Of a DNA stretch of 64,000 nt, positions 1,178-58,257 are shown in pieces (the stretch's first letter is position 1; each line of letters opens with the position of its first letter). The DNA is from Lysobacter sp. MMG2 (GTDB taxonomy: Bacteria; Pseudomonadota; Gammaproteobacteria; Xanthomonadales; Xanthomonadaceae): NCBI RefSeq assembly GCF_016735495.2, contig NZ_JAERQY020000001.1, forward strand, positions 1,054,001 through 1,118,000. Direction: 5' to 3'. The notes beneath the pieces were generated by a model. That model did no database searches and was not told the DNA's origin. It worked only from the letters and a program-made list of their open reading frames with translations. A program made the translations under genes and the position numbers.

Positions 1178-2413
1178 CTACTGCTGCCGCAACGCCTCGA
1201 TCGGATCCAGCTGCGAAGCCTTGCGCGCCGGGTAATAGCCGAAGAACAGGCCGGTCATGATCGAGAACGTGGCGGCCAGCGCGATCACCTGGCCGTTGAG
1301 CGCCACCGGCAGGTCGCTGAACTTCCCGACCAGCAGCGCGCCCGCCACGCCGATGACGATGCCCAGCACGCCGCCGCCCAGCGAAAGCAACATCGCCTCG
1401 GCGAGGAACTGCCGGCGCACATCCGCCGGACCTGCACCGACCGCCATGCGCAGGCCGATCTCGCGGATTCGCTCGGTCACCGAGACCAGCATGATGTTCA
1501 TGATGCCGATGCCGCCGACGATCAACGAGATCGTCGCCACCGCGCCGAGCAGCAGCGACATCAGCCGCGTCGTCGCCGTGCGCGTGGCGACGATCTCGGA
1601 AATGTTGCGAACGTTGAAGTCGTCTTCCTCGCCCGGCTTGATGCGATGGCGCTGGCGCAGCAGGCCCTCCACTTCGCCCTGCGCGTAGGACAGGTCCTTC
1701 GCGTCGGACACGGTCAGCGCGATCTGCATCACCGCGCCCGACGGCAGGCCCATCGCGCCCATCAGGCGGCGGCGCGCGGTTTCCAGCGGCACCATCACCA
1801 CATCGTCCTGGTCCTGGCCGAACCCGCCCTGCCCCTTCGGCTTGAGCGTGCCGACCACGGTGAACGGCACGCGGCCCAGGCGGATCGTCTGACCGATGCC
1901 CGGCTCGTCGCCGAACAACGTGCGCCGCACCGTTTCGCCCAGGATCACGGTCTTGCCTGCGCTGGTGTAGTCCTGCGCATCGAAGCCCTGGCCGTTGGCG
2001 ATCACCCAACCGTTGATGTCGAAGAAGTCCGCCTGCACGCCCTGCCAGCTGGTGGAGGCGTTGTTCTCCGCGTACACCACCTGCGTGTTGCCGCGCAGCG
2101 CGCCGGCGACGTACTGCACTTCGGGGATCTCGCTGCGGATCGCGTCGACGTCGCCCTCATTGAGCGTGAAAAAGCTCGCCGAGCTCATGCGCACGCCGCC
2201 ACCGCCACGGCCCGCGCCGGGGCTGATGTCCAGGCGCTGCGAGCCCAGGCCGGAGACCATCTTGTCGATTTCCTGCTGCGTGCCCTGCCCCACCGACACC
2301 ATCACGATCACCGCCGCGATGCCGATGATCACGCCCAGCGAAGTCAGCGCGCTGCGCATCCAGTTGCCGCGCAACGCGTAGATGGCGGTGCGCAGGATGT
2401 CGGAGAAGTTCAT
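1178..2413 (-). CDS. MacB-type ABC transporter permease (FtsX domain)
   Basis: 411-residue permease of the MacB/LolCE type, working with the separate ATPase and the periplasmic adaptor encoded upstream. An N-terminal MacB_PCD part has a membrane segment near residues 20-42 (GVIIGIAAVIVMVSVG), followed by a large periplasmic domain. The C-terminal FtsX domain has three hydrophobic segments including GGIGIMNIMLVSVTERIREIG, the family's coupling region. The frame is open upstream to 2539, but ATG 2413 begins the conserved MNFSDILRTA amino terminus and the extra codons are repeat sequence. In E. coli MacB the ATPase and permease are fused; here they are separate genes divided by a 29-bp inverted repeat. 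Confidence 0.93.
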   Translation of the reverse strand: MNFSDILRTAIYALRGNWMRSALTSLGVIIGIAAVIVMVSVGQGTQQEIDKMVSGLGSQRLDISPGAGRGGGGVRMSSASFFTLNEGDVDAIRSEIPEVQYVAGALRGNTQVVYAENNASTSWQGVQADFFDINGWVIANGQGFDAQDYTSAGKTVILGETVRRTLFGDEPGIGQTIRLGRVPFTVVGTLKPKGQGGFGQDQDDVVMVPLETARRRLMGAMGLPSGAVMQIALTVSDAKDLSYAQGEVEGLLRQRHRIKPGEEDDFNVRNISEIVATRTATTRLMSLLLGAVATISLIVGGIGIMNIMLVSVTERIREIGLRMAVGAGPADVRRQFLAEAMLLSLGGGVLGIVIGVAGALLVGKFSDLPVALNGQVIALAATFSIMTGLFFGYYPARKASQLDPIEALRQQ

Positions 2414-2422
2414 GGTGTGTGG

Positions 2423-2519
2423 CCGGGATTCGTGATTCGGGATTCGGGATTCGCAAAAGCGGGGCTCAGGAGCGTCATGGCGCTTCTCCCAATCCCGAAT
2501 CCCGACTCCCGAATCCCGG
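2423..2519. repeat. 29-bp inverted repeat of GGATTCG units between ATPase and permease genes
   Basis: Left arm 2423-2451 and right arm 2491-2519 are inverted copies matching at 27 of 29 positions, each made of tandem GGGATTCG-like units, around a 39-nt loop. The right arm and part of the loop code for the carboxy terminus of the ATPase, and its stop codon lies in the loop at 2475-2477. The transcript could form a long hairpin between two genes of one operon. The unit resembles a common xanthomonad intergenic repeat. Confidence 0.85.
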
Positions 2520-3245
2520 CTCTTCATGCATCTGGCCATCGCGCATCACGTAGATGCGGTCGGCGTGCGCGGCCACGTCGGCGTCGTGGGTGATCAGCAC
2601 CACGGTGTGGTCCTCGTCGCGCAGCCGCTTGAACAACGCGAGGATCTCCTCGCCGGTCTTGCTGTCGAGCGCGCCGGTGGGTTCGTCGGCGAGCAGGATC
2701 GGCGGCCGGTTGATCAGCGCGCGCGCGATCGCCACGCGCTGCTGCTGACCGCCGGAGAGTTCGCTCGGACGATGGCCGACGCGCTCGCCCAGGCCCACCG
2801 CGACCAGCGCCTCGCGCGCACGCTCGATGCGCTCGTGCGGCGGCACGCGCGCGTAGCCCAGCGGCATCGCCACGTTGTCCAGCGCGCTCATGCGCGGCAG
2901 CAGGTTGAAGCCCTGGAAGACGAAGCCGATCTTGTCCAGACGCAGCGTCGCCAGTTCCTCGGCGTCGAGCGTGGACACGTCCACGCCGTCGCATTCGTAG
3001 CTGCCCGAGGTGGGCGTATCCAGGCAGCCGATCAGGTTCATCAGGGTCGATTTGCCCGAGCCCGACGGCCCCATGATCGCGACGAACTCGCCGCGGTCGA
3101 TGCGCAGGTCCACGTCGCGCAGCGCCTGCACTTCGGCCTCGGTGTGCGCGGAGTAGGTCTTGCACAGCGCACGGGTGAGGATGACCGGCGTCGCCGCCGG
3201 CGCGCGCGCCGTGCGCCCGATTGCGTCGTCGCGGGTCCCGCTCAT
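2475..3245 (-). CDS. MacB/LolD-type ABC transporter ATP-binding protein
   Basis: 256-residue nucleotide-binding subunit of a MacAB-like exporter. Walker A GPSGSGKST, Q-loop FVFQGFNLL, signature LSGGQQQRVAIARAL, Walker B ILLADEPTGALD and the switch His in LITHDAD are all present. Its start (ATG 3245) overlaps the stop of the upstream adaptor gene as ATGA, showing translational coupling. An N-terminal tail of about 20 residues precedes the domain, and the last 15 or so (EEPGFGSRDSGLGEAP) are encoded by the repeat element, so they are probably not conserved. Substrate cannot be told; macrolide or peptide export is the family expectation. Confidence 0.94.
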   Translation of the reverse strand: MSGTRDDAIGRTARAPAATPVILTRALCKTYSAHTEAEVQALRDVDLRIDRGEFVAIMGPSGSGKSTLMNLIGCLDTPTSGSYECDGVDVSTLDAEELATLRLDKIGFVFQGFNLLPRMSALDNVAMPLGYARVPPHERIERAREALVAVGLGERVGHRPSELSGGQQQRVAIARALINRPPILLADEPTGALDSKTGEEILALFKRLRDEDHTVVLITHDADVAAHADRIYVMRDGQMHEEPGFGSRDSGLGEAP

Positions 3246-6249: not shown

Positions 6250-6966
6250 CTACTCGGGCGGCTGCGATATGTCGGCCACGCGATAACCCGCGCTCTGCAC
6301 GGTGTGCAGCAGCTGCTTGTCGAACGGCTTGTCGATGGTCTTGCGCAGGTTGTAGAGGTGACTGCGCAGCGTGTCCGAGTCGGGCAGCCCGTTGCCCCAG
6401 ATCTCGCGTTCGATCTCCTGCCGGCTGACCACGCGCGGCGATTCGCGCATGAGGATCGTCAGCAGGCGAAGTCCGATGGGCGAGAGCTGCAACTCGCTGC
6501 CGCCGCGAGTGACGCGCAGGCTGGCCGGATCGAGCACCAGGTCGGCGACCTTCAGCACTTCGCCGCCGACCTGCCGGCGCTCGCGGCGGATCAGGGCGCG
6601 CAGGCGCGCTTCCAGTTCCTGGATCGCGAACGGCTTGGTCAGGTAATCGTCGGCCCCGGCGCCCAGTCCGGTGAGCTTCTCGTCCAGCGTGTCACGCGCG
6701 GTGAGCATCAGCACCGGCGTGGACTTGCGGGCCTCTTCGCGCAGCTTCTTGCACAGCTCCACGCCGTCCATGCGCGGGAGCATCAAGTCGAGCACGATGA
6801 CGTCGTAGTTGTTCTCCGTCGCCAGGCGATAACCGTCGAGGCCGTCGCTGGCATAGTCGACTTCGAACCCCCGGCCTTCGAGGTATTCGCCGACCATTTC
6901 CGAGATGTTGCGGTTGTCTTCGACAATGAGGACCAGGCCGCCGTCCCTTGTTCCGGTACCCTGCAT
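6250..6966 (-). CDS. OmpR/PhoB-family response regulator
   Basis: 238 residues: an N-terminal receiver (LIVEDN acidic pair, phospho-acceptor Asp in VIVLDLMLPRMDG near residue 58, conserved Lys in YLTKPF) and a C-terminal winged-helix domain (REIWGNGLPDSDTLRSHLYNLR type recognition helix). ATG 6966 was chosen over the longer frame to 7152 because GGGAGG lies 8-9 nt upstream and the receiver starts immediately. Partner of the histidine kinase directly downstream. Confidence 0.95.
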   Translation of the reverse strand: MQGTGTRDGGLVLIVEDNRNISEMVGEYLEGRGFEVDYASDGLDGYRLATENNYDVIVLDLMLPRMDGVELCKKLREEARKSTPVLMLTARDTLDEKLTGLGAGADDYLTKPFAIQELEARLRALIRRERRQVGGEVLKVADLVLDPASLRVTRGGSELQLSPIGLRLLTILMRESPRVVSRQEIEREIWGNGLPDSDTLRSHLYNLRKTIDKPFDKQLLHTVQSAGYRVADISQPPE

Positions 6967-7074
6967 GCAAAAACCCTCCCGACGCTTCAGCTTTGTGAAG
7001 GCTGCCGGGCCGCCGGTGGAGGGACCGTGAAGGCCCACCACAAAACCTGAACGAAACCCTAGCGATTCCTTCTC

Positions 7075-7416
7075 ATGCCCCTGGACCGCATCCTCCCCAT
7101 CGCCCTGCTGCTGGGCTCGAACATCTTCATGACCTTCGCCTGGTACGGGCACCTGAAGTACAAGTCCGCGCCGCTGATGCTGGCGATCTTCGCCAGCTGG
7201 GGCATCGCGTTCTTCGAGTACTGCCTGATGGTGCCCGCCAACCGGATGGGCAGCTCAGTCTACTCGGCGCCCCAGCTCAAGGGCATGCAGGAGGTCATCA
7301 CCCTGCTGGTCTTCGCGGGCTTCTCGGCCTGGTACCTGGACCAGCCGCTGAAGTGGAACCACTGGGCCGGCTTCGCGCTGATCGCGGTGGCGGCGTGGTT
7401 GATCTTTCTGGAGTGA
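7075..7416 (+). CDS. DMT-family membrane protein (DUF486)
   Basis: 113 residues with four hydrophobic segments (about 5-21, 32-51, 73-88 and 95-112), matching the small DUF486 branch of the drug/metabolite transporter superfamily. Conserved-looking features are FMTFAWYGHLK and the EYCLMVPANRMG stretch after the second membrane helix. Divergent from the response-regulator gene; its stop is followed by a repeat/hairpin element that separates it from the convergent DUF962 gene. Substrate unknown. Confidence 0.88.
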   Translation: MPLDRILPIALLLGSNIFMTFAWYGHLKYKSAPLMLAIFASWGIAFFEYCLMVPANRMGSSVYSAPQLKGMQEVITLLVFAGFSAWYLDQPLKWNHWAGFALIAVAAWLIFLE

Positions 7417-7429
7417 GGTCCGGTGTTGG

Positions 7430-7570
7430 CCTTCTCCCCTTGCGGGAGAAGGTGCCGACGGGCGGAAGAGGGCGCGCGCAGCGCGGACTTGTGCCCCCTC
7501 TCCCTGGCCGCATTCGGCGGCCTGTCCCTCTCAGCTCTGCACTCCCTTCGGTCGCCGAAAGGGGAGAGGG
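7430..7570. repeat. Composite inverted-repeat element between convergent genes
   Basis: A 9-bp hairpin CCTTCTCCC/GGGAGAAGG (7430-7452, 5-nt loop) is followed by a second, longer inverted pair CCCTCTCCC (7497-7505) with GGGAGAGGG (7562-7570), enclosing further palindromic sequence around 7506-7530. It fills the gap between the stop codons at 7416 and 7581 and could act as a bidirectional terminator. A related GCCCTCTCCCG hairpin lies downstream of dps at 49765-49790. This style of element is common in xanthomonad intergenic DNA. Confidence 0.7.
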
Positions 7571-7580
7571 AAAACAGAAA

Positions 7581-7883
7581 TCAGAACCGTATCCTCCCGC
7601 TCAAGATGTCCTTGAACATCACCCAGTCGCCGACGAACGAATAGAACGGGTGCTTGAACGTCGCCGGCCGGTTCTTCTCGAAGAAGAAGTGCCCGACCCA
7701 GGCGAAACCGTAGCCGCACACCAGCGCCGCCAGCAGCCACCACGCATTGCGCTGCACGATCGCGGTCGCCAGCAGCGCCAGCACCCCGCAACTGCCGATG
7801 AAATGCAGTCGCCGGCTGGTGCGGTGGCTGTGTTCGCTGAGGTAGAACGGGTAGAACTCGCGGAAGCTGGCGAAGCGCGACAT
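7581..7883 (-). CDS. DUF962 / Mpo1-like small membrane protein
   Basis: 100 residues. The N-terminal pattern FREFYPFYLSEHSHRTSRRLHFIG carries the conserved HxxxxxRxxHxxG of the DUF962 (YGL010w/Mpo1-like) family, followed by two membrane segments (about 31-65) and GHFFFEKNRPATFKHP near the end. The yeast relative is a 2-hydroxy fatty-acid dioxygenase; activity of this bacterial protein is unproven. ATG 7883 follows the mazG stop by 23 nt, so the two are likely co-transcribed. Confidence 0.9.
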   Translation of the reverse strand: MSRFASFREFYPFYLSEHSHRTSRRLHFIGSCGVLALLATAIVQRNAWWLLAALVCGYGFAWVGHFFFEKNRPATFKHPFYSFVGDWVMFKDILSGRIRF

Positions 7884-7906
7884 GTCGTCCTCCGTGGCCT
7901 GACCGC

Positions 7907-8743
7907 TCAGGCCTTTTCGGCGGCCTTGGCGCGATCCCAGAGGCGATCCTGCGCTTCCAGCGAAAGCCCGGCAAGCGGGGTCCCGTCGGCCTCGGCCAGC
8001 GCCTCCATCGCGCGGAAGCGGCGCTCGAACTTGAGGTTCGCCCGGCGCATCGCCGCGCCCACGTCCACCTGCGCATGACGCGCAAGGTTGGCACAGACGA
8101 ACAGCACATCGCCGATCTCGTCCTCCAGCCGGTCCCGCGCCGCGGCGTCCTGCGGATCGGCGTCCAGTGCAGCGAACTCCACCCGCACCTCGTCGATCTC
8201 CTCGTGCAGCTTGGCGATCACCGGCGTGACGTCGGGCCAGTCGAAGCCCACGCGCGCGGCGCGCTTCTGCAATTTCACCGCGCGCTGCCACTCGGGCAGG
8301 CCGCGCGCGATGCCGGCGAGCGCGGAACGGTCCTCATGGCCGCTGGCCTCGCGCTCGCGGCGCTTCTGTTCTTCCCATGCGACGGTCTGCGCGTCCGCGT
8401 CCTCGACCGACGCATCGCCGAAGACATGCGGATGCCGGCGCACCATCTTGTCGCAGATCGCCGCGACCACGTCGCCGAACGCGAATGCGCCCTGCTCGTT
8501 CGCCATCTGCGCATGGAAGACCACCTGCAGCAGCAGGTCGCCCAGTTCGTCCTTCAGATCGACCAGGTCGCCGCGGTCGATCGCGTCGGCGACTTCGTAC
8601 GCTTCCTCGATCGTGTACGGCGCGATCGTGGCGAAGTCCTGCTCCAGGTCCCACGGGCACCCGCCGTTCGGGTCGCGCAGGCGGGCCATGATGTTCAAAA
8701 GGGTATGGACATCACGGAAATCGAAGCTACTGAGTGACGTCAT
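7907..8743 (-). CDS. mazG: Nucleoside triphosphate pyrophosphohydrolase MazG
   Basis: 278 residues, two MazG domains. Hydrolyses all NTPs to NMP and PPi; a housecleaning enzyme that also modulates ppGpp-linked responses in E. coli. The N-terminal domain has LRDPNGGCPWDLEQ and the metal-binding EExxE...ELGD set (EEAYEV, KDELGDLLLQVVFHA); the second has LHEEIDEV and EDEIGDVLFVCANLARH. Length is close to E. coli MazG (263). Start ATG 8743. Confidence 0.96.
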   Translation of the reverse strand: MTSLSSFDFRDVHTLLNIMARLRDPNGGCPWDLEQDFATIAPYTIEEAYEVADAIDRGDLVDLKDELGDLLLQVVFHAQMANEQGAFAFGDVVAAICDKMVRRHPHVFGDASVEDADAQTVAWEEQKRREREASGHEDRSALAGIARGLPEWQRAVKLQKRAARVGFDWPDVTPVIAKLHEEIDEVRVEFAALDADPQDAAARDRLEDEIGDVLFVCANLARHAQVDVGAAMRRANLKFERRFRAMEALAEADGTPLAGLSLEAQDRLWDRAKAAEKA

Positions 8744-51712: not shown

Positions 51713-51853
51713 GCGCTCAGGTTGGCGCCGCAGCTGCCGCTATCCAGAGTGGGCCAACCGGGCGGCCCATCGTTCATGCGTCCTCGCGCCACAGACACGG
51801 CCGGGGCCGTATAACCGCGAAAACCCGCCACGTTCAGGGTCGTGGAGGACAAC

Positions 51854-52258
51854 ATGGGACTGAACATAGAAGGTGGCTGCCTTTGCGGAGCCGTGCGCTA
51901 CCGGGCCACTGCGCCACCGGTGTCGCGCAGCATCTGCCACTGCCGGAGCTGCCGGCGCGCGAGCGGCGCACCCTCGGTCGCGTGGTCGACCTTCCATGTC
52001 AACAGCATCGTTTTCCTCAGCGGCATGCCCGTGCGCTATCGCTCATCGACCCACGTGGTGCGCACGTTCTGCGGCAACTGTGGCACGCAGCTGAGCTACC
52101 GGCACGACGACGACGTGGGCAGCATCGACATCACGACCGCCACGCTCGACGCGCCCGAGGAGTTTCCGCCGACCAAGGAAATCTGGATCGAGCACAAGCT
52201 TCCGTGGGAACGGACCAACGAGGCGATGCGGCATTACCCGCGCACGAGCACGTCGTGA
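51854..52258 (+). CDS. GFA-family (CENP-V/GFA) zinc protein, copy 1
   Basis: 134 residues. Zinc ligands in GCLCGAVRY, CHCRSCRR and CGNCGT match the glutathione-dependent formaldehyde-activating (GFA) fold. Family members bind two zincs, but most have no proven enzyme activity. ATG 51854 has GGAGGA upstream; the 51842 start would be GTG. Followed by a paralogue 19 nt away. Confidence 0.92.
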   Translation: MGLNIEGGCLCGAVRYRATAPPVSRSICHCRSCRRASGAPSVAWSTFHVNSIVFLSGMPVRYRSSTHVVRTFCGNCGTQLSYRHDDDVGSIDITTATLDAPEEFPPTKEIWIEHKLPWERTNEAMRHYPRTSTS

Positions 52259-52277: not shown

Positions 52278-52715
52278 ATGTCGGAGCAGATGATCTTCGA
52301 CGGTGGCTGCCTCTGCGGCGCCATTCGCTACCGCGCGACCAGCGCACCGTTGCGCGGCGTGATCTGCCATTGCGGGATCTGCCGGCGCCACTCCGGTGCG
52401 CCGGCCCTGGCGTTCGTGCATTTTCCCGCCGCGGCCTTCCAGTGGCTGACTTCACCGCCGAGCTGGTACCGCTCCTCTCCACACGCCGAACGAGGCTTCT
52501 GCTCCGTGTGCGGAAGCACGGTGGGCATGCGCGAGGATGTCCTCGCCGACCGCGTGCAGGTATGCGTCGGCAGCCTCGATGCTCCATCCGCCGTACGCAT
52601 CGACGACCACGTCTGGACGAAGTCCCGCTTGCCATGGTTCGACACCACCGATGGCCTCCCCCGTTTCGCGCACAGCAGCACGGCCGTGCCCAGCCAGGCC
52701 TCGAGCACAGACTGA
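52278..52715 (+). CDS. GFA-family (CENP-V/GFA) zinc protein, copy 2
   Basis: 145 residues with GCLCGAIRY, CHCGICRRHSGAP and CSVCGS, so the zinc ligands are intact. GGGAGG lies 8 nt before the ATG. Tandem with copy 1 and similar in its first 20 residues but diverged afterwards, so the duplication is old or the two were acquired separately. Confidence 0.92.
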   Translation: MSEQMIFDGGCLCGAIRYRATSAPLRGVICHCGICRRHSGAPALAFVHFPAAAFQWLTSPPSWYRSSPHAERGFCSVCGSTVGMREDVLADRVQVCVGSLDAPSAVRIDDHVWTKSRLPWFDTTDGLPRFAHSSTAVPSQASSTD

Positions 52716-53600: not shown

Positions 53601-53704
53601 GACAGGCGTATAGACGCGAAGCCACTGACGAGACGGCAAAGCGGATTCGCGACGCAGCGACGCCTTCCAATCCAGCATCGCAATCGTCTGATGTGGATTG
53701 TGGT

Positions 53705-53730
53705 CGTGATGGATTCGAACCATCGACCAG
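53705..53730. repeat. Left attachment-site copy (att) of the tRNA-Lys island
   Basis: 26-bp exact copy of CGTGATGGATTCGAACCATC and the following GACCAG, identical to 58190-58215 in the tRNA-Lys gene (T-arm and flank). A TGGT block also precedes both, but a GGGC present in the tRNA is missing here. Marks the left end of the island; not a functional tRNA. Confidence 0.85.
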
Positions 53731-53913
53731 TGAAATACGAACCGAAGATTCTGTTGAAGAATCAAACGGTTATGGGCAAAAGGACGACGGCAGTGCGCCC
53801 AACTGTCAGAGTTTCCAGCCCTTCCTAAGGTGGAACTATAGTGGCCTCCGCCCCCCTTGGCCGAGTCGCCTGCCAACCTTACCCGAAGCCAAAACCCGAT
53901 CCAGCACGCACAC

Positions 53914-54690
53914 TCACGCACTGGAGCAGCATGGATCGACGGGCTCATACGGCCACGAGCACTTAGTCCCTTGGACGGCCCTATTGGATCCACGGGGGCG
54001 TTGCGCCACGAGCGCACTCCCCTGCCCCCCGGAGTTGGGTGGCACGCGCGGCTGGCGCGCCGCGGATGACCAGCCGAGATCCGACAGGCGGACCTCGATC
54101 TGGGTGCGCACGACGTGCAGGCCTTCGGCCGCGTGCAGGTCGTTGAAGTCGCTGGCCTTGCGGCCATGTTCGAGGAACGCCGCCTGGCGTGCCGACTCCT
54201 CGCGAAACTGAGGCACCACCCACGCGCCGTTGACCTCCAGCGCCGCGGCGCTCGCCGCTGTCACGCCGGTGTTCGTGCGCGTGTGTGGCGCACCGCAGTG
54301 GGGGCAATCGTGCGAGTGCTGAGGGAGCACGACGCGGCCTTGGCAGCCGATGCACTTCCCGTAGATGTCGTCGTCCGCGCAGATCAGCACGCGCGCCTGC
54401 TTATAGCGCTTGTGCAGCGCGGCGGCGACCGCCCCGAGGTTGCCGGCGTCGAACGCTACGGCCACGGGAAAGCCCGTAGCCTCGTGGAGCGTCGCCGCCG
54501 TCGCATAGCCTTCCGCCACAAGCACGATCCAACTTGGTGCGCCGATCAGGTGGAAGTGCCCCTTGGTGGCCACGCCGCGCGGCCAGTATTCCTTGTCGCG
54601 CTGGCCGGGCTTCGCTGCCTTGCCGCGGATGATCTGCAGGCCGTGAATCTTGCCCGAGGCGTCGAGCATCATCGAAGCCGGCGCGATTAC
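53914..54690 (-). pseudogene. Truncated toprim/primase gene of a mobile element
   Basis: Open frame of about 260 codons (frame extends to 54753, but element-like sequence ends near 54690). Residues look like the toprim part of P4-type or DUF5906-associated primases: LDASGKIHGLQIIRGKA, LVAEGYATAATLHEATG, AFDAGNLGAV, ICADDD. A zinc-ribbon-like CIGCQGR...CPHCGAPH inside is characteristic. The start has been lost at the 54690 junction, so this is a remnant, and the last 50 residues are likely read-through. The C-terminal side abuts the left att site. Confidence 0.7.
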
Positions 54691-54844
54691 AGAGGGCCAG
54701 CGATTCAGCCCGCATGACCTCAAGCGGAAGGGTGGAACCGACACCACCGGCAACCGGGCCGAGAAGCAGGATGCCCTCGGTGTCTCCGAGGCGATGATGA
54801 AGGTCTATGACAAAAGCGTCCCGAAAGTCCGGCCGTCCGGTTGA
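54690..54844 (+). pseudogene. C-terminal fragment of a tyrosine-recombinase integrase
   Basis: About 50 codons reading FSPHDLKRKGGTDTTGNRAE, then MMKVYDKSVPKVRPSG to the stop. HDLKRKG is the HxxR-like box and the Tyr in KVYDKS the likely nucleophile position of phage-type integrases. The rest of the gene is missing; it meets the toprim fragment head to head. Confidence 0.68.
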
Positions 54845-54911
54845 GCCAGCCACGTTTACGGCGCCGCGGTCCCACCCTATCCTTTAGCTAATCACAGCCT
54901 GCCAATAACCC

Positions 54912-55850
54912 ATGCCCACTGCAGTATCGCTCTTCACCGGTTGCGGCGGATCGGACGCTGGCCTCGTGGCCGCTGGATTCGACGTGCTAATGGCTAACGA
55001 CATTCTGAGCTATGCCGCTGAGGTCTATACGGCCAACTTGCCGGAGACCGACTACAGAGTCGGTAACGTAGAGAAAATCAAGGCATTCCCGCGAGCTGAC
55101 CTCCTGGTCGGGTGCTACCCGTGCCAAGGCTATAGCCAAGGCGGAGCTCGAGAAGTTGGAAGAGACATCAATTACCTCTTTCGCGAGTTCGGTCGTGCAC
55201 TGCGACAGATCAAGCCAAAGGCCTTCATCGTCGAGAATGTTTCCGGGCTAACTCGCGAAGACAACAAGTTCCTTTTTCAAATGCAACTGAGGAACTTTCG
55301 TGCTGCTGGCTATCGAGTGACGTGGAAGCTTCTCAACGCGGCCGACTTTGGCGTTGCCCAAGAACGCCATCGAGTGATTATCGTGGGCATGCGCTCAGAT
55401 TTTGGTGACTCTTACGAGTTTCCGGAAGCGACGCATGGCCCAGGGACCACTCAGCCATATGTAACGATTCGCGAGGCTCTAGACGGCCTGCCCGAATGGC
55501 CAGCAGGCGAGTTTAACGATGAACCGTTCCATTGGTACTACATGTCCAGAAACCGGAGGCGGGACTGGGCAGAGTTATCTAAAACCATAGTCAGCCGTGC
55601 GCGTCACATGCCCCTCCACCCTCTTAGTCCCAAACTAGTCCCGGCTGGCAAAGACAAGTACGTTTTCGAAACGGACGCGCCTGCGCGCCGCTTCAGCTAC
55701 AGAGAGGCAGCTAGGCTCCAAGGGTTTGCAGGTGAAATGGCCTTCCCCGACTCGTGTGGGATGTTCACTCGATACAAGGTGGTCGGCAATGCAGTTCCGC
55801 CCCCGCTTTTCGAAGCGGTGGCGAGATCCCTGCCTCCCAACATTTGGTGA
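54912..55850 (+). CDS. DNA (cytosine-5-)-methyltransferase
   Basis: 312 residues; C5-cytosine methylation, type II-like. Motif I SLFTGCGGSDAGLVAAGFD, motif IV GCYPCQGYSQGG (catalytic Cys), motif VI VENVSGL, motif VIII VAQERHRVIIVGMR, motif IX/X with FTRYKVVGNAVPPPLFEAVA. The target-recognition region (about 165-240) is short, and its site cannot be told from sequence. It ends one base from the stop of the opposing nuclease candidate, a layout common in restriction-modification loci. Lower GC than flanking genes, consistent with transfer. Confidence 0.96.
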   Translation: MPTAVSLFTGCGGSDAGLVAAGFDVLMANDILSYAAEVYTANLPETDYRVGNVEKIKAFPRADLLVGCYPCQGYSQGGAREVGRDINYLFREFGRALRQIKPKAFIVENVSGLTREDNKFLFQMQLRNFRAAGYRVTWKLLNAADFGVAQERHRVIIVGMRSDFGDSYEFPEATHGPGTTQPYVTIREALDGLPEWPAGEFNDEPFHWYYMSRNRRRDWAELSKTIVSRARHMPLHPLSPKLVPAGKDKYVFETDAPARRFSYREAARLQGFAGEMAFPDSCGMFTRYKVVGNAVPPPLFEAVARSLPPNIW

Positions 55851-55851
55851 T

Positions 55852-56790
55852 TTAGCCCACGATCGCTCGAACCTTGTCGAGGCGCTTACGCAGCGCGGGC
55901 CGCACAATCTTTGGCGTCATCCTTTCGGCAATTAGCACTAAGCGCGCTCGATCGAAGACCATTCCTTTGCTCCGCTGCGCCGTCTCACGGAGTGATTCGT
56001 CGCCAAGCATAAAGGGAGTGGTGAATGCCTTGATGGGATTGACAATCCAAGGGGGATTAAACCACTTGCTGATCTGATGCTCGTTCGGATCGGTGATTTT
56101 CGTGTCCCAGTCATTGCCACAAGCGCATTGCCCCAACACGTAGAGGTTGCCGGCGCGCTGATCTAGAAAATCGGACCTGATGACGAAGTCTACCGTTTCG
56201 TCTTTTTCGGCCGTAGGGTCGTCAGGCAGGCCCGCCTGCGGCTGCCAGTTCCACTCGTAACCGTAATAGTTCAAGGGCGCCATGGCTGCTTTGAACCGCG
56301 TGCTCGGTGTCCGGGGAAACCCTGTGTGCAGCGCCCACGCGGCCGGACCAAAGTACGTTTTGACCAAGCCGGTTACAGCGCGTTCGAATGTTCTGGGAAG
56401 CGCTGTATTAGGACCCGTGGTGATATTCGTTGTTTGCGCTACAACCAAGCAGAACTCGTAAAACCCGGTCCCACTCGCACGATACGTTAGACGGTTTCCC
56501 GCCAGGTCGAACGGGTATGCGTCTCCCATCATTTTGATTCGACGCTTGATCTCCTGCGCGGCTTCGCCCACAAGTTCTTCCTGACGAATGTCCTGCTGCT
56601 GCCAGGCAATGCGACCTTCCTCGCTGGCCTCAATTTCTGAAAGGTCGTCGAGCTCCCCCGACACGATCTCATCCCTGGCGGCGTCGTCGACTACTGCGAA
56701 GACGCTGCGCAAGGCGGTCAACTCAATTTGATCGGCATCTCGAGCGATCCTCGGTTCACCTGGTCGCTTCTGATAGGGACTACGGGGCAT
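55852..56790 (-). CDS. Putative PD-(D/E)XK-like nuclease partner of the methyltransferase
   Basis: 312 residues, no confident family name. Central pattern: FERAVTGLVKTYFG ... HTGFPRTPSTRFKAAM, then DETVDFVIRSDF and GNLYVLGQCACGNDWDTK. An acidic helix, a buried Asp strand and a following (Q/E)xC or QxK-like strand recall PD-(D/E)XK enzymes, but the canonical Lys is not in place, so activity is uncertain. Start ATG 56790 has GGGAG about 9 nt upstream and overlaps the ParB-like gene by 11 nt. Tail-to-tail with the methyltransferase, which suggests a restriction or defence role. Confidence 0.6.
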   Translation of the reverse strand: MPRSPYQKRPGEPRIARDADQIELTALRSVFAVVDDAARDEIVSGELDDLSEIEASEEGRIAWQQQDIRQEELVGEAAQEIKRRIKMMGDAYPFDLAGNRLTYRASGTGFYEFCLVVAQTTNITTGPNTALPRTFERAVTGLVKTYFGPAAWALHTGFPRTPSTRFKAAMAPLNYYGYEWNWQPQAGLPDDPTAEKDETVDFVIRSDFLDQRAGNLYVLGQCACGNDWDTKITDPNEHQISKWFNPPWIVNPIKAFTTPFMLGDESLRETAQRSKGMVFDRARLVLIAERMTPKIVRPALRKRLDKVRAIVG

Positions 56791-57934
56791 TCTGATTTGC
56801 TCCCACCGCCGCCTCCTGCAGTTTGCGGAGGAGCGACGCACTCAAGCTCGACACGGCACTCGCTGGGCCGATTAGAGCCGCGGCAATCTCGCGCTCAATC
56901 TGAGTTTCGTCCATGCGCGACGTCATGTCTCGCAAGGCAGCCCGAACTTGCTCGATGCCCAGCCGCAACTTGTCATTGATAGGCTGAGTCGCCGCTTCGA
57001 TCTCCTCCACGGTCTTACCCTGCTCGACCATCGTCAGCGTCTCAGGGTTCACGAGCAGCGAGGCAAGCCGTCCGAGCTGCCGGGAATCATCAACCGACGA
57101 ATTGCGTCCCGTTTTTCGATCGCCAAACATGGCGCTCATGAGTACCGCGCCCTTGCGTCGACCGTCTTCAGAAAGCGGCTCCGGTGCAGTCGCGACCCCC
57201 TCCAGGCCGAGATACCGCTTCGTCGCTTCGTAGCCAAGCATCGTGTAGACCCATGAGAACGGGTAGTCGGTCACCGACCCCCGGCCGCCCCGAATACTGT
57301 CATTCGGTCGGAAATCGCCCGAGTCGATCAGCTGGCGGATCAAGTAGTAGCCTTGAAGAAGACGCTCGATAGTCTTGTGCTGGTCGCCAATCATGATGGC
57401 GATGTCCGCCACAGGGAGACCATGCTGCTCAACTACATCGGCGACCCACGCAGCCTTTGCAAAAGAATCCCAGCTGCGTGAAGCAGAAATGTGGCGCACA
57501 CCCAAATAGGAAAGCAGCCCGCGCTTCGCGTCTTCGCCTTCAAACACAATGACGGGGACCGGATCCAAGCGCGGTCGTCCATGCTTTTCCCATTCGACGC
57601 GGAACTTCTCTGCCTTGTCGTCGACCCGACGTGCTCTGTTATCGCCCGTGAGCATGAGGCATGCCGCCAGCCGGCGATTGCCTTCAGCCACAATTAGTTC
57701 ATTGCCGACCTTGCGAACAACAAGCGGCTCAGCTTCGAAATAGCCATTGACAGATAGCGAACTCAGCAGATCGTCCACGCCGAACGTGTCCACGATGTGC
57801 TCAAGCACTTCGTCTTGGCTGCGCACACGGTCGACTTTTCCGCCGAACCTCGGATTCTCGACGTCGAGTTGCAACTGCGAAAGTGCAACCTCCATCTTCT
57901 CGGGTGCCTTACCCTCGATTGCTGGGACACTCAC
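56780..57934 (-). CDS. ParB/sulfiredoxin-fold protein of unknown function
   Basis: 384 residues with GTG start 57934 (GGAGAG 7 nt upstream). N-terminal ParB/Srx-like domain (about 15-120): VALSQLQLDVENPRFGG, then SVNGYFEAEPLVVRKVGNELIVAEGNRRLAACLML, where EGNRRLAA is the family's nucleotide- or DNA-contact loop. The rest is helical (QHKTIERLLQGYYLIRQL) with a charged C-terminus. ATG 57895 is an alternative start. Likely the DNA-binding or regulatory partner of the downstream nuclease candidate; not a chromosome-partition ParB, since no ParA is present. Confidence 0.78.
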   Translation of the reverse strand: MSVPAIEGKAPEKMEVALSQLQLDVENPRFGGKVDRVRSQDEVLEHIVDTFGVDDLLSSLSVNGYFEAEPLVVRKVGNELIVAEGNRRLAACLMLTGDNRARRVDDKAEKFRVEWEKHGRPRLDPVPVIVFEGEDAKRGLLSYLGVRHISASRSWDSFAKAAWVADVVEQHGLPVADIAIMIGDQHKTIERLLQGYYLIRQLIDSGDFRPNDSIRGGRGSVTDYPFSWVYTMLGYEATKRYLGLEGVATAPEPLSEDGRRKGAVLMSAMFGDRKTGRNSSVDDSRQLGRLASLLVNPETLTMVEQGKTVEEIEAATQPINDKLRLGIEQVRAALRDMTSRMDETQIEREIAAALIGPASAVSSLSASLLRKLQEAAVGANQNAP

Positions 57935-58181
57935 TGTTCGCTCTCCGACTCTTGGATGTTTCGAGGGCGCATAAATATTGGTCTGCGGCCCTGCACAGCG
58001 CCCAACGGCGCGTTCGCGCGAGATGGCGGATCGCCGGGTACCCCATCCCCCCTGCCGCGAGAGCCGATCCGCTTCGCCGGCGACCATACCGCATAGGTGG
58101 TGTATTGTCGCGAGCCCCAGCCTATTTTACGGAGGGATTTACGGATGCTCGGCTCTTGGCTTCGCAAGTCATTGACACGTA

Positions 58182-58257
58182 TGGTGGGCCGTGATGGATT
58201 CGAACCATCGACCAGCGGATTAAAAGTCCGATGCTCTACCGACTGAGCTAACGGCCC
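58182..58257 (-). tRNA. tRNA-Lys (UUU anticodon)
   Basis: 76 nt including encoded CCA. On the minus strand: acceptor GGGCCGT/ACGGCCC, D-loop AGCTCAGTCGGTAGAGCA, anticodon loop CTTTTAA with anticodon TTT, T-loop GTTCGAATC. Located 110 nt from queC; right att site of the island lies in its 3' half and the tRNA remains intact. Confidence 0.97.
58190..58215. repeat. Right attachment-site copy within tRNA-Lys
   Basis: The 26-bp repeat identical to 53705-53730, covering the T-arm and the start of the variable region. Direct repeat spacing 4485 bp. Confidence 0.85.

Follow-up and report, generated by a model that had tools for sequence, protein, structure and literature searches.

Positions 54,912 to 57,934 of a 64,000-nucleotide (nt) stretch of Lysobacter sp. 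MMG2 contig NZ_JAERQY020000001.1, referred to here as the window, pose a simple question: why should the gene for a C5-cytosine DNA methyltransferase (M) stand opposed to the genes for a nuclease candidate (X) and a ParB-like protein (A), and what might the three do together? The initial annotation, made from the letters alone, had described a tight unit of a complete C5 methyltransferase, a 312-residue protein and a ParB-like open reading frame (ORF) with junctions of one base and 11 nt, and the ORF coordinates confirm it (Table 1). The stop of X, which is opposed to M, lies at 55852, one base past the M stop, and A and X overlap by 11 nt. The longest ORFs run from GTG 56841 for X (329 amino acids, aa) and from 58087 for A (435 aa). 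Scans for promoters (0 found, 1.0 expected) and terminators (3 found, 2.8 expected, which is chance level) were uninformative.

Our analysis leads us to read A-X-M as a mobile restriction-modification-type defence module, in which A and X form a two-subunit restriction arm and the modification arms are interchangeable; we put the probability of this reading at roughly two-thirds. It is based on open full-length genes, gene order, predicted folds, conserved catalytic residues, co-divergence of A and X, their association with modification genes, and a hotspot position in P2-like phages. The earlier suggestion of an undescribed restriction or defence module holds in that restriction or defence is the best reading, but the methyltransferase has turned out to be only one of several modification partners of A-X. 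The accompanying ideas, that the ParB-like protein stands in for a specificity subunit and might steer the nuclease or sense unmethylated sites, are hypotheses. The module is apparently undescribed, its novelty being provisional: no description of A-X-M was found in the openly licensed PMC papers searched, REBASE and most subscription papers lying outside the search.

Predicted roles of the three proteins

X has no Pfam match at E-values up to 1 and matches phrog_14650, unassigned in function in PHROG, with E=3.6e-59. It had been proposed to be a nuclease from a PD-(D/E)XK-like pattern (DETVDFVIR...GQCACGNDW), and this region indeed holds the conserved D201 and Q221, with K231 slightly beyond it. 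Over 74 sequences, D is kept in 74, Q in 74 and K in 73; D and Q belonged to the search pattern that fetched most of these sequences, and K did not. Comparison of the predicted structure points to the same fold: the leading match of both fold and active site is MspJI, with AspBHI further down, and E136 lies in a helix preceding D201, Q221 and K231. The likeness to these modification-dependent endonucleases is not significant by sequence (the sole relevant match of the X profile to PDB sequences is a stretch of MspJI with E=0.25), and the lysine is displaced. On the strength of its model, X is a predicted PD-(D/E)XK nuclease, and the partner of M has, with this predicted fold, the endonuclease fold and catalytic residues looked for in a type II restriction-modification (R-M) system.

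A matches none of the curated ParB profiles, in Pfam or NCBIfam, at E-values up to 1, and it matches phrog_3694, again unassigned in function in PHROG, with E=1.2e-79. Its predicted model has a ParB-CTPase fold together with a helix-turn-helix (HTH) according to Foldseek and VIA-align, which makes A a predicted ParB/Noc/KorB-type nucleoside triphosphatase (NTPase) plus HTH. Membership in a ParABS partition system was considered and rejected; fold and HTH are present, but no curated ParB profile matches.

The methyltransferase is the most readily classified of the three. M matches Pfam DNA_methylase (PF00145) with E=3.2e-61, and a profile of 23 module methyltransferases aligns with M.HaeIII (1dct) over its full length (E=1.1e-92), the same profile aligning with M.HhaI in the catalytic parts only. 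The window M is 60–67% identical to 18 of 22 aligned relatives. A phage P2 record names the WPhi-type M 'Modification methylase BspRI', and the site of BspRI is GGCC. The target-site contacts of M.HaeIII include, in the available part of the source, S224, R225, R243, S219 and Q244 (PMC11879396). By our reading of the alignment, the first three are all kept in the window M as S212, R213 and R231, and the equivalents of the last two are histidines. Given the M.HaeIII likeness, the kept contact residues and the BspRI label, the target of M is probably GGCC or a close variant.

Cleavage, the protective effect of M, the assembly of a complex, GGCC as target, and both the binding of nucleoside triphosphate (NTP) and its role are inferred; together they would give the following mechanism. 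M would label self DNA through C5 methylation of a short site. A, with its ParB fold, would bind NTP and DNA; it would load on DNA and bring or license X to cut DNA that lacks the mark. Across bacteria and phages, the A-X pair is accompanied by other arms as well, namely other C5 methyltransferases, N6/N4 methyltransferases, D12 adenine methyltransferases or Dnd genes.

The fold of X invites another explanation, in which A-X responds to modification in a type IV or SspE-like manner, either acting only on marked or damaged DNA or serving as an abortive-infection effector checked by modified host DNA. Its leading match, MspJI, is a modification-dependent enzyme, as is AspBHI, and SspE pairs a ParB/Srx-fold NTPase with a nuclease. 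The available parts of PMC12373910 and PMC10952713 describe such a pairing for GmrSD. However, the marks made by the partners of A-X are chemically unlike (5-methylcytosine (5mC), those of amino-methyltransferases, and Dnd), so that a single direct reader is hard to envisage, and a 5mC-dependent nuclease beside a chromosomal M would cut the host. We consider this explanation quite unlikely.

Recurrence of the A-X pair and exchange of its partners

The annotated phages WPhi, 12474III and D14A all have the same order of A, X and an opposed M. A tblastn search with the window X gave nothing among named phages and one record among plasmids, and a related-locus search from the single X protein confirmed nothing; relatives were obtained via A, via profiles and via a DNA pattern. 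The pattern, built around the active site of X, returned 76 loci (10 + 29 + 37), several of them near-duplicates, and 56 of them encode X by profile. Seven of the 56, interrupted by the locus end or an insertion, are non-evaluable for A. At every one of the other 49, A lies on the same strand within 500 nt upstream of X, and it lies upstream in all 47 loci having at least 900 nt of upstream sequence. A DNA-modification gene is near X in 53/53 evaluable loci, and in 48 of them a C5 methyltransferase is found downstream of X (45 convergent, 3 codirectional); among the 47 loci having at least 1000 nt of downstream sequence, 42 have such a C5 methyltransferase. Three of the 45 convergent matches are 0.9–1.4 kb away (L017, where X is interrupted, L024 and L086), and at L078 the codirectional methyltransferase ends at the locus boundary. 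The remaining five loci carry a D12 gene (L037), N6/N4 genes (L045, L073 and L084, although L084 was assigned through its sequence motif and likeness instead of Pfam) or, at L085, Dnd genes. As a control, none of the 20 pattern hits that do not encode X has a homologue of A or of the C5 methyltransferase in its locus at E-values up to 1e-4. The gene order is therefore far beyond chance.

Searches by profile only covered 369, 59, 398 and 398 genomes, the source genome included and the sets partly overlapping; one of them used a small seven-row profile, and its rate is not comparable with the others. In each of the 11 X loci found in this way, A lies upstream and a gene of modification type accompanies the pair: C5 in five, D12 in three, N6/N4 in two (one called by motif alone), and DndE-HerA with an SMC-like ATPase in one. 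This count leaves out a weak X match, G379 (7e-4), and one of the 11, G1104, is possibly on the same contig as L084. The Dnd-type neighbourhoods differ in content. At L132 (2612–6314), a fusion of DndE with a HerA-like ATPase, together with an SMC-like ATPase, immediately precedes A-X in the same orientation, the modifying enzyme itself not being seen among the neighbours examined. At L085, A-X lies beside a putatively DndA-like class V aminotransferase, DndB and a DndC-like PAPS-reductase-domain gene. Overall, the co-occurrence of A-X with a methyltransferase in other genomes, whose absence would have spoken against the initial annotation, is strong, and the methyltransferase gene adjoins that of the nuclease as in type II R-M systems.

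Separately, L086 has a NotI-like restriction endonuclease gene (6757–7956; Pfam 6e-9) directly downstream of A-X; beyond it, a 91-residue piece in opposed orientation, which matches C5 methyltransferases weakly (5e-7), runs to the locus end.

A few loci weigh against the restriction-modification reading. In L133, the Persicobacter psychrovividus plasmid pPP2, an A-X pair stands without a recognisable modification gene, and an incomplete M is found beside open A and X at L057 (3234–3536) and L125 (5827–6495). Unless they reflect assembly errors, the latter two possibly represent a natural test of the need for M. The L133 pair lies within a cassette-array-like run of mostly short same-strand genes.

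The constancy of A also bears on the possibility that A is a controller, that is, a KorB-like NTP-switched repressor timing the expression of X, with X alone restricting. Small C proteins do time restriction-gene expression in some type II systems. However, C proteins are far smaller than A, and A is never missing, either at the 49 pattern loci or at the 11 profile-only loci. Moreover, the divergence of A and X is coupled as tightly as that of complex partners, to which gene linkage could contribute. A controller role for A is in our judgement unlikely.

This coupling was measured on 24 non-redundant A-X-M triples out of 40, with the window and the three annotated phages among them. Between X and A, pairwise identities correlate with r = 0.94; against M, the values for X and A are only r = 0.33 and 0.35. 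WPhi and 12474III are 97.8% identical in M, 22.5% in X and 32.5% in A. These observations suggest that A and X travel together as a unit and that the modification arms next to them are swapped. Among 5426 complete E. coli genomes, the WPhi type is present in 103 and the 12474III type in 36; in the 16 cross-type matches listed, DNA identity of 93.3% extends over query positions 2234–3171, which is the M gene less one base. The pairs nearest to the window's A-X have N6/N4 and D12 partners, although the window M is 61–67% identical to core M; the HTH of its A (IGDQHKTIERL) is closest to LGDNHNTVRRL of L084 and L037, and its X is 23–26% identical to those of L084, L037 and L045 versus 14–21% to most others. 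These branch statements are based on pairwise identities and HTH likeness.

We also noted that four E. coli records (NZ_CP173544.1, NZ_CP193883.1, NZ_CP048915.1 and NZ_CP123036.1) have insertion sequence elements in or at the edge of a WPhi-type module, or an X annotation split in two; the methyltransferase is still annotated in them. These cases would fit loss of the nuclease before M.

Which component recognises the target? The HTH of A was considered as the reader of M's site and found unsupported: its helices, the recognition helix included, differ between WPhi and 12474III although their M proteins are 98% identical, and an HTH that does not follow M argues against this role. The same fact, together with A-X pairs of different branches accompanying nearly identical M and the presence of A-X beside Dnd-type genes at L085 and L132, would favour recognition by the modification arm. 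A-X would then be recruited by that arm or complexed with it, and A would be an NTP-driven switch, following the logic of Dnd, BREX or type I systems and not of type II. On the other hand, a single M would need to interact with A-X pairs that differ strongly (X 22% identical), and the ORF tables contain no M-A or M-X fusion, no systematic fusion search having been made. We find recognition through the modification arm improbable, if worth keeping in mind. Tentatively, and with considerable doubt, the two-subunit restriction arm might be taken further, to a general engine of restriction: a ParB-type DNA clamp, switched by NTP, would load, slide and deliver the nuclease, and self would be told from non-self by any modification arm present (5mC, N6/N4, D12 6-methyladenine or phosphorothioate).

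A tRNA island and a phage hotspot

The window copy of the module lies in a 4.5-kb stretch that contains A, X and M plus a TOPRIM/primase fragment, bordered by a repeat of the tRNA-Lys 3' end (Table 1). The phrog_2249 match of the fragment spans only 162–332 of the 802 profile positions. G+C content is 0.56–0.58 across 55001–58000 versus mostly 0.65–0.72 in the window. Window positions 53731–58157 have no match in the tRNA-Lys stretches (6.3–6.7 kb) of 10/10 same-genus genomes, whereas the tRNA-Lys/queC side aligns in 10/10; the HU gene lies 0.3–2.9 kb from the tRNA in 5/10. X was not found in these 10 whole genomes at E-values up to 0.001, and in its own genome both X and A are single-copy. 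On this evidence, the stretch is an acquired island cut down to A-X-M and a relic.

Table 1. Features of the module and its island in the window
Feature	Position	Strand	Details
M, C5-cytosine DNA methyltransferase, M.HaeIII-like including target-recognition segment	54912..55850	+	312 aa, full-length ORF
X, predicted PD-(D/E)XK nuclease	55852..56790	-	312 aa from ATG 56790; catalytic candidates D201, Q221, K231
A, predicted ParB-CTPase-fold protein with HTH	56780..57934	-	384 aa
tRNA-Lys (TTT), integration site	58182..58257	-	ARAGORN; 3' part 58187-58222 is one arm of the flanking repeat
att-like repeat of tRNA-Lys 3' end, other island border	53702..53737	.	direct repeat 36 nt, 89% identical, spacing 4485
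TOPRIM/primase fragment, mobile-element relic	53914..54753	-	Pfam Toprim_3 1.9e-8; phrog_2249 DNA primase 1.8e-58

In phages the set is found elsewhere. In 12474III (L004) it is flanked by the portal gene on one side and replication gene A on the other, both by annotation; in WPhi (L002) replication gene A is annotated on one side and the record ends at the set. Portal homologues occur in 16 loci. According to the available part of PMC9519451, the P2 position between replication gene A and portal is a defence hotspot holding tin and old. The phage relatives are thus at a P2-like hotspot, and the window copy sits in a tRNA island instead.

The frequency of the set in P2-like prophages might also be taken to mean that these are phage or plasmid accessory genes outside defence, involved in DNA partition or host takeover, with M serving anti-restriction. 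A does have a ParB fold, and the Persicobacter A carries the NCBI name 'ParB/RepB/Spo0J family partition protein'. However, no parA was seen among the annotated or Pfam-scanned neighbours, a subset of all; the P2 position holds defence genes; the set is also chromosomal, and it occupies a tRNA island in which a relic is all that is left of a phage; and the nuclease residues are conserved. Neither A nor X was assigned to a known non-defence family, an outcome that would have told against the defence proposal of the initial annotation. Altogether, a non-defence role seems very unlikely.

Beyond the repeat, two tandem small proteins (51842–52258 and 52278–52715) have GGCLCGA[VI]RYRAT near the start; we take them to resemble the GFA/Mss4-like family.

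Relation to known systems

Type II R-M systems of the M.HaeIII/BspRI group are similar to the module in M, which aligns over its full length including the target segment. They differ in that the restriction side of the module consists of two genes, one of them ParB-fold, and the constant presence of A (49/49) would argue against cleavage without NTP or an extra subunit. With GmrSD and SspE, which combine a ParB/Srx-fold NTPase with an HNH nuclease, the module has in common a ParB/Srx-superfamily protein coupled to a nuclease. However, its A looks like the N-domain of ParB/KorB combined with an HTH and does not match DUF262, its X is modelled as PD-(D/E)XK and not HNH, and a separate modification gene accompanies the pair. 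Membership in this group was rejected, as neither A nor X has a Pfam match and A carries EGNRR, not the (I/V)DGQQR motif given in PMC10952713.

PD-Lambda-5 (Vassallo et al. 2022, PMC9519451) comes close on one side only. A matches the PADLOC PD-Lambda-5_A models (best 1.4e-13) only over the N-terminal part of the profiles, at most ~200 positions where most have 420–590, and no PADLOC model matched X or its six scanned relatives at E-values up to 1. With both components not present at the profile level, PD-Lambda-5 membership was rejected. Dnd systems with accessory nucleases (PMC10853773) are comparable in that A-X adjoins Dnd-type genes at L085 and L132; the nuclease and partner in A-X differ from DndFGH, and the available part of that source mentions no pair of ParB and restriction endonuclease. 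Finally, the PADLOC models DruM and DrmMII match M as a C5 methyltransferase. Membership in Druantia or DISARM, which would call for helicases and other system genes beside the methyltransferase, was rejected, because none of the Dru or Drm models matches any of the three remaining large proteins of the island, the small island ORFs lying outside the scan.

In the module, the ParB nucleotide-switch fold, familiar chiefly from chromosome partition, is joined to a nuclease and to DNA-modification genes that can be exchanged. Confirmation would add a restriction architecture whose A and X have no Pfam match and whose PADLOC match is partial, and it would assign a role to genes that carry hypothetical or ParB-domain labels in 139 of 5426 complete E. 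coli genomes. Nearly identical methyltransferases accompanied by very different nuclease pairs also constitute a natural experiment. If the more general A-X engine proves true, it would form a separate class of restriction that brings the ParB clamp into DNA immunity.
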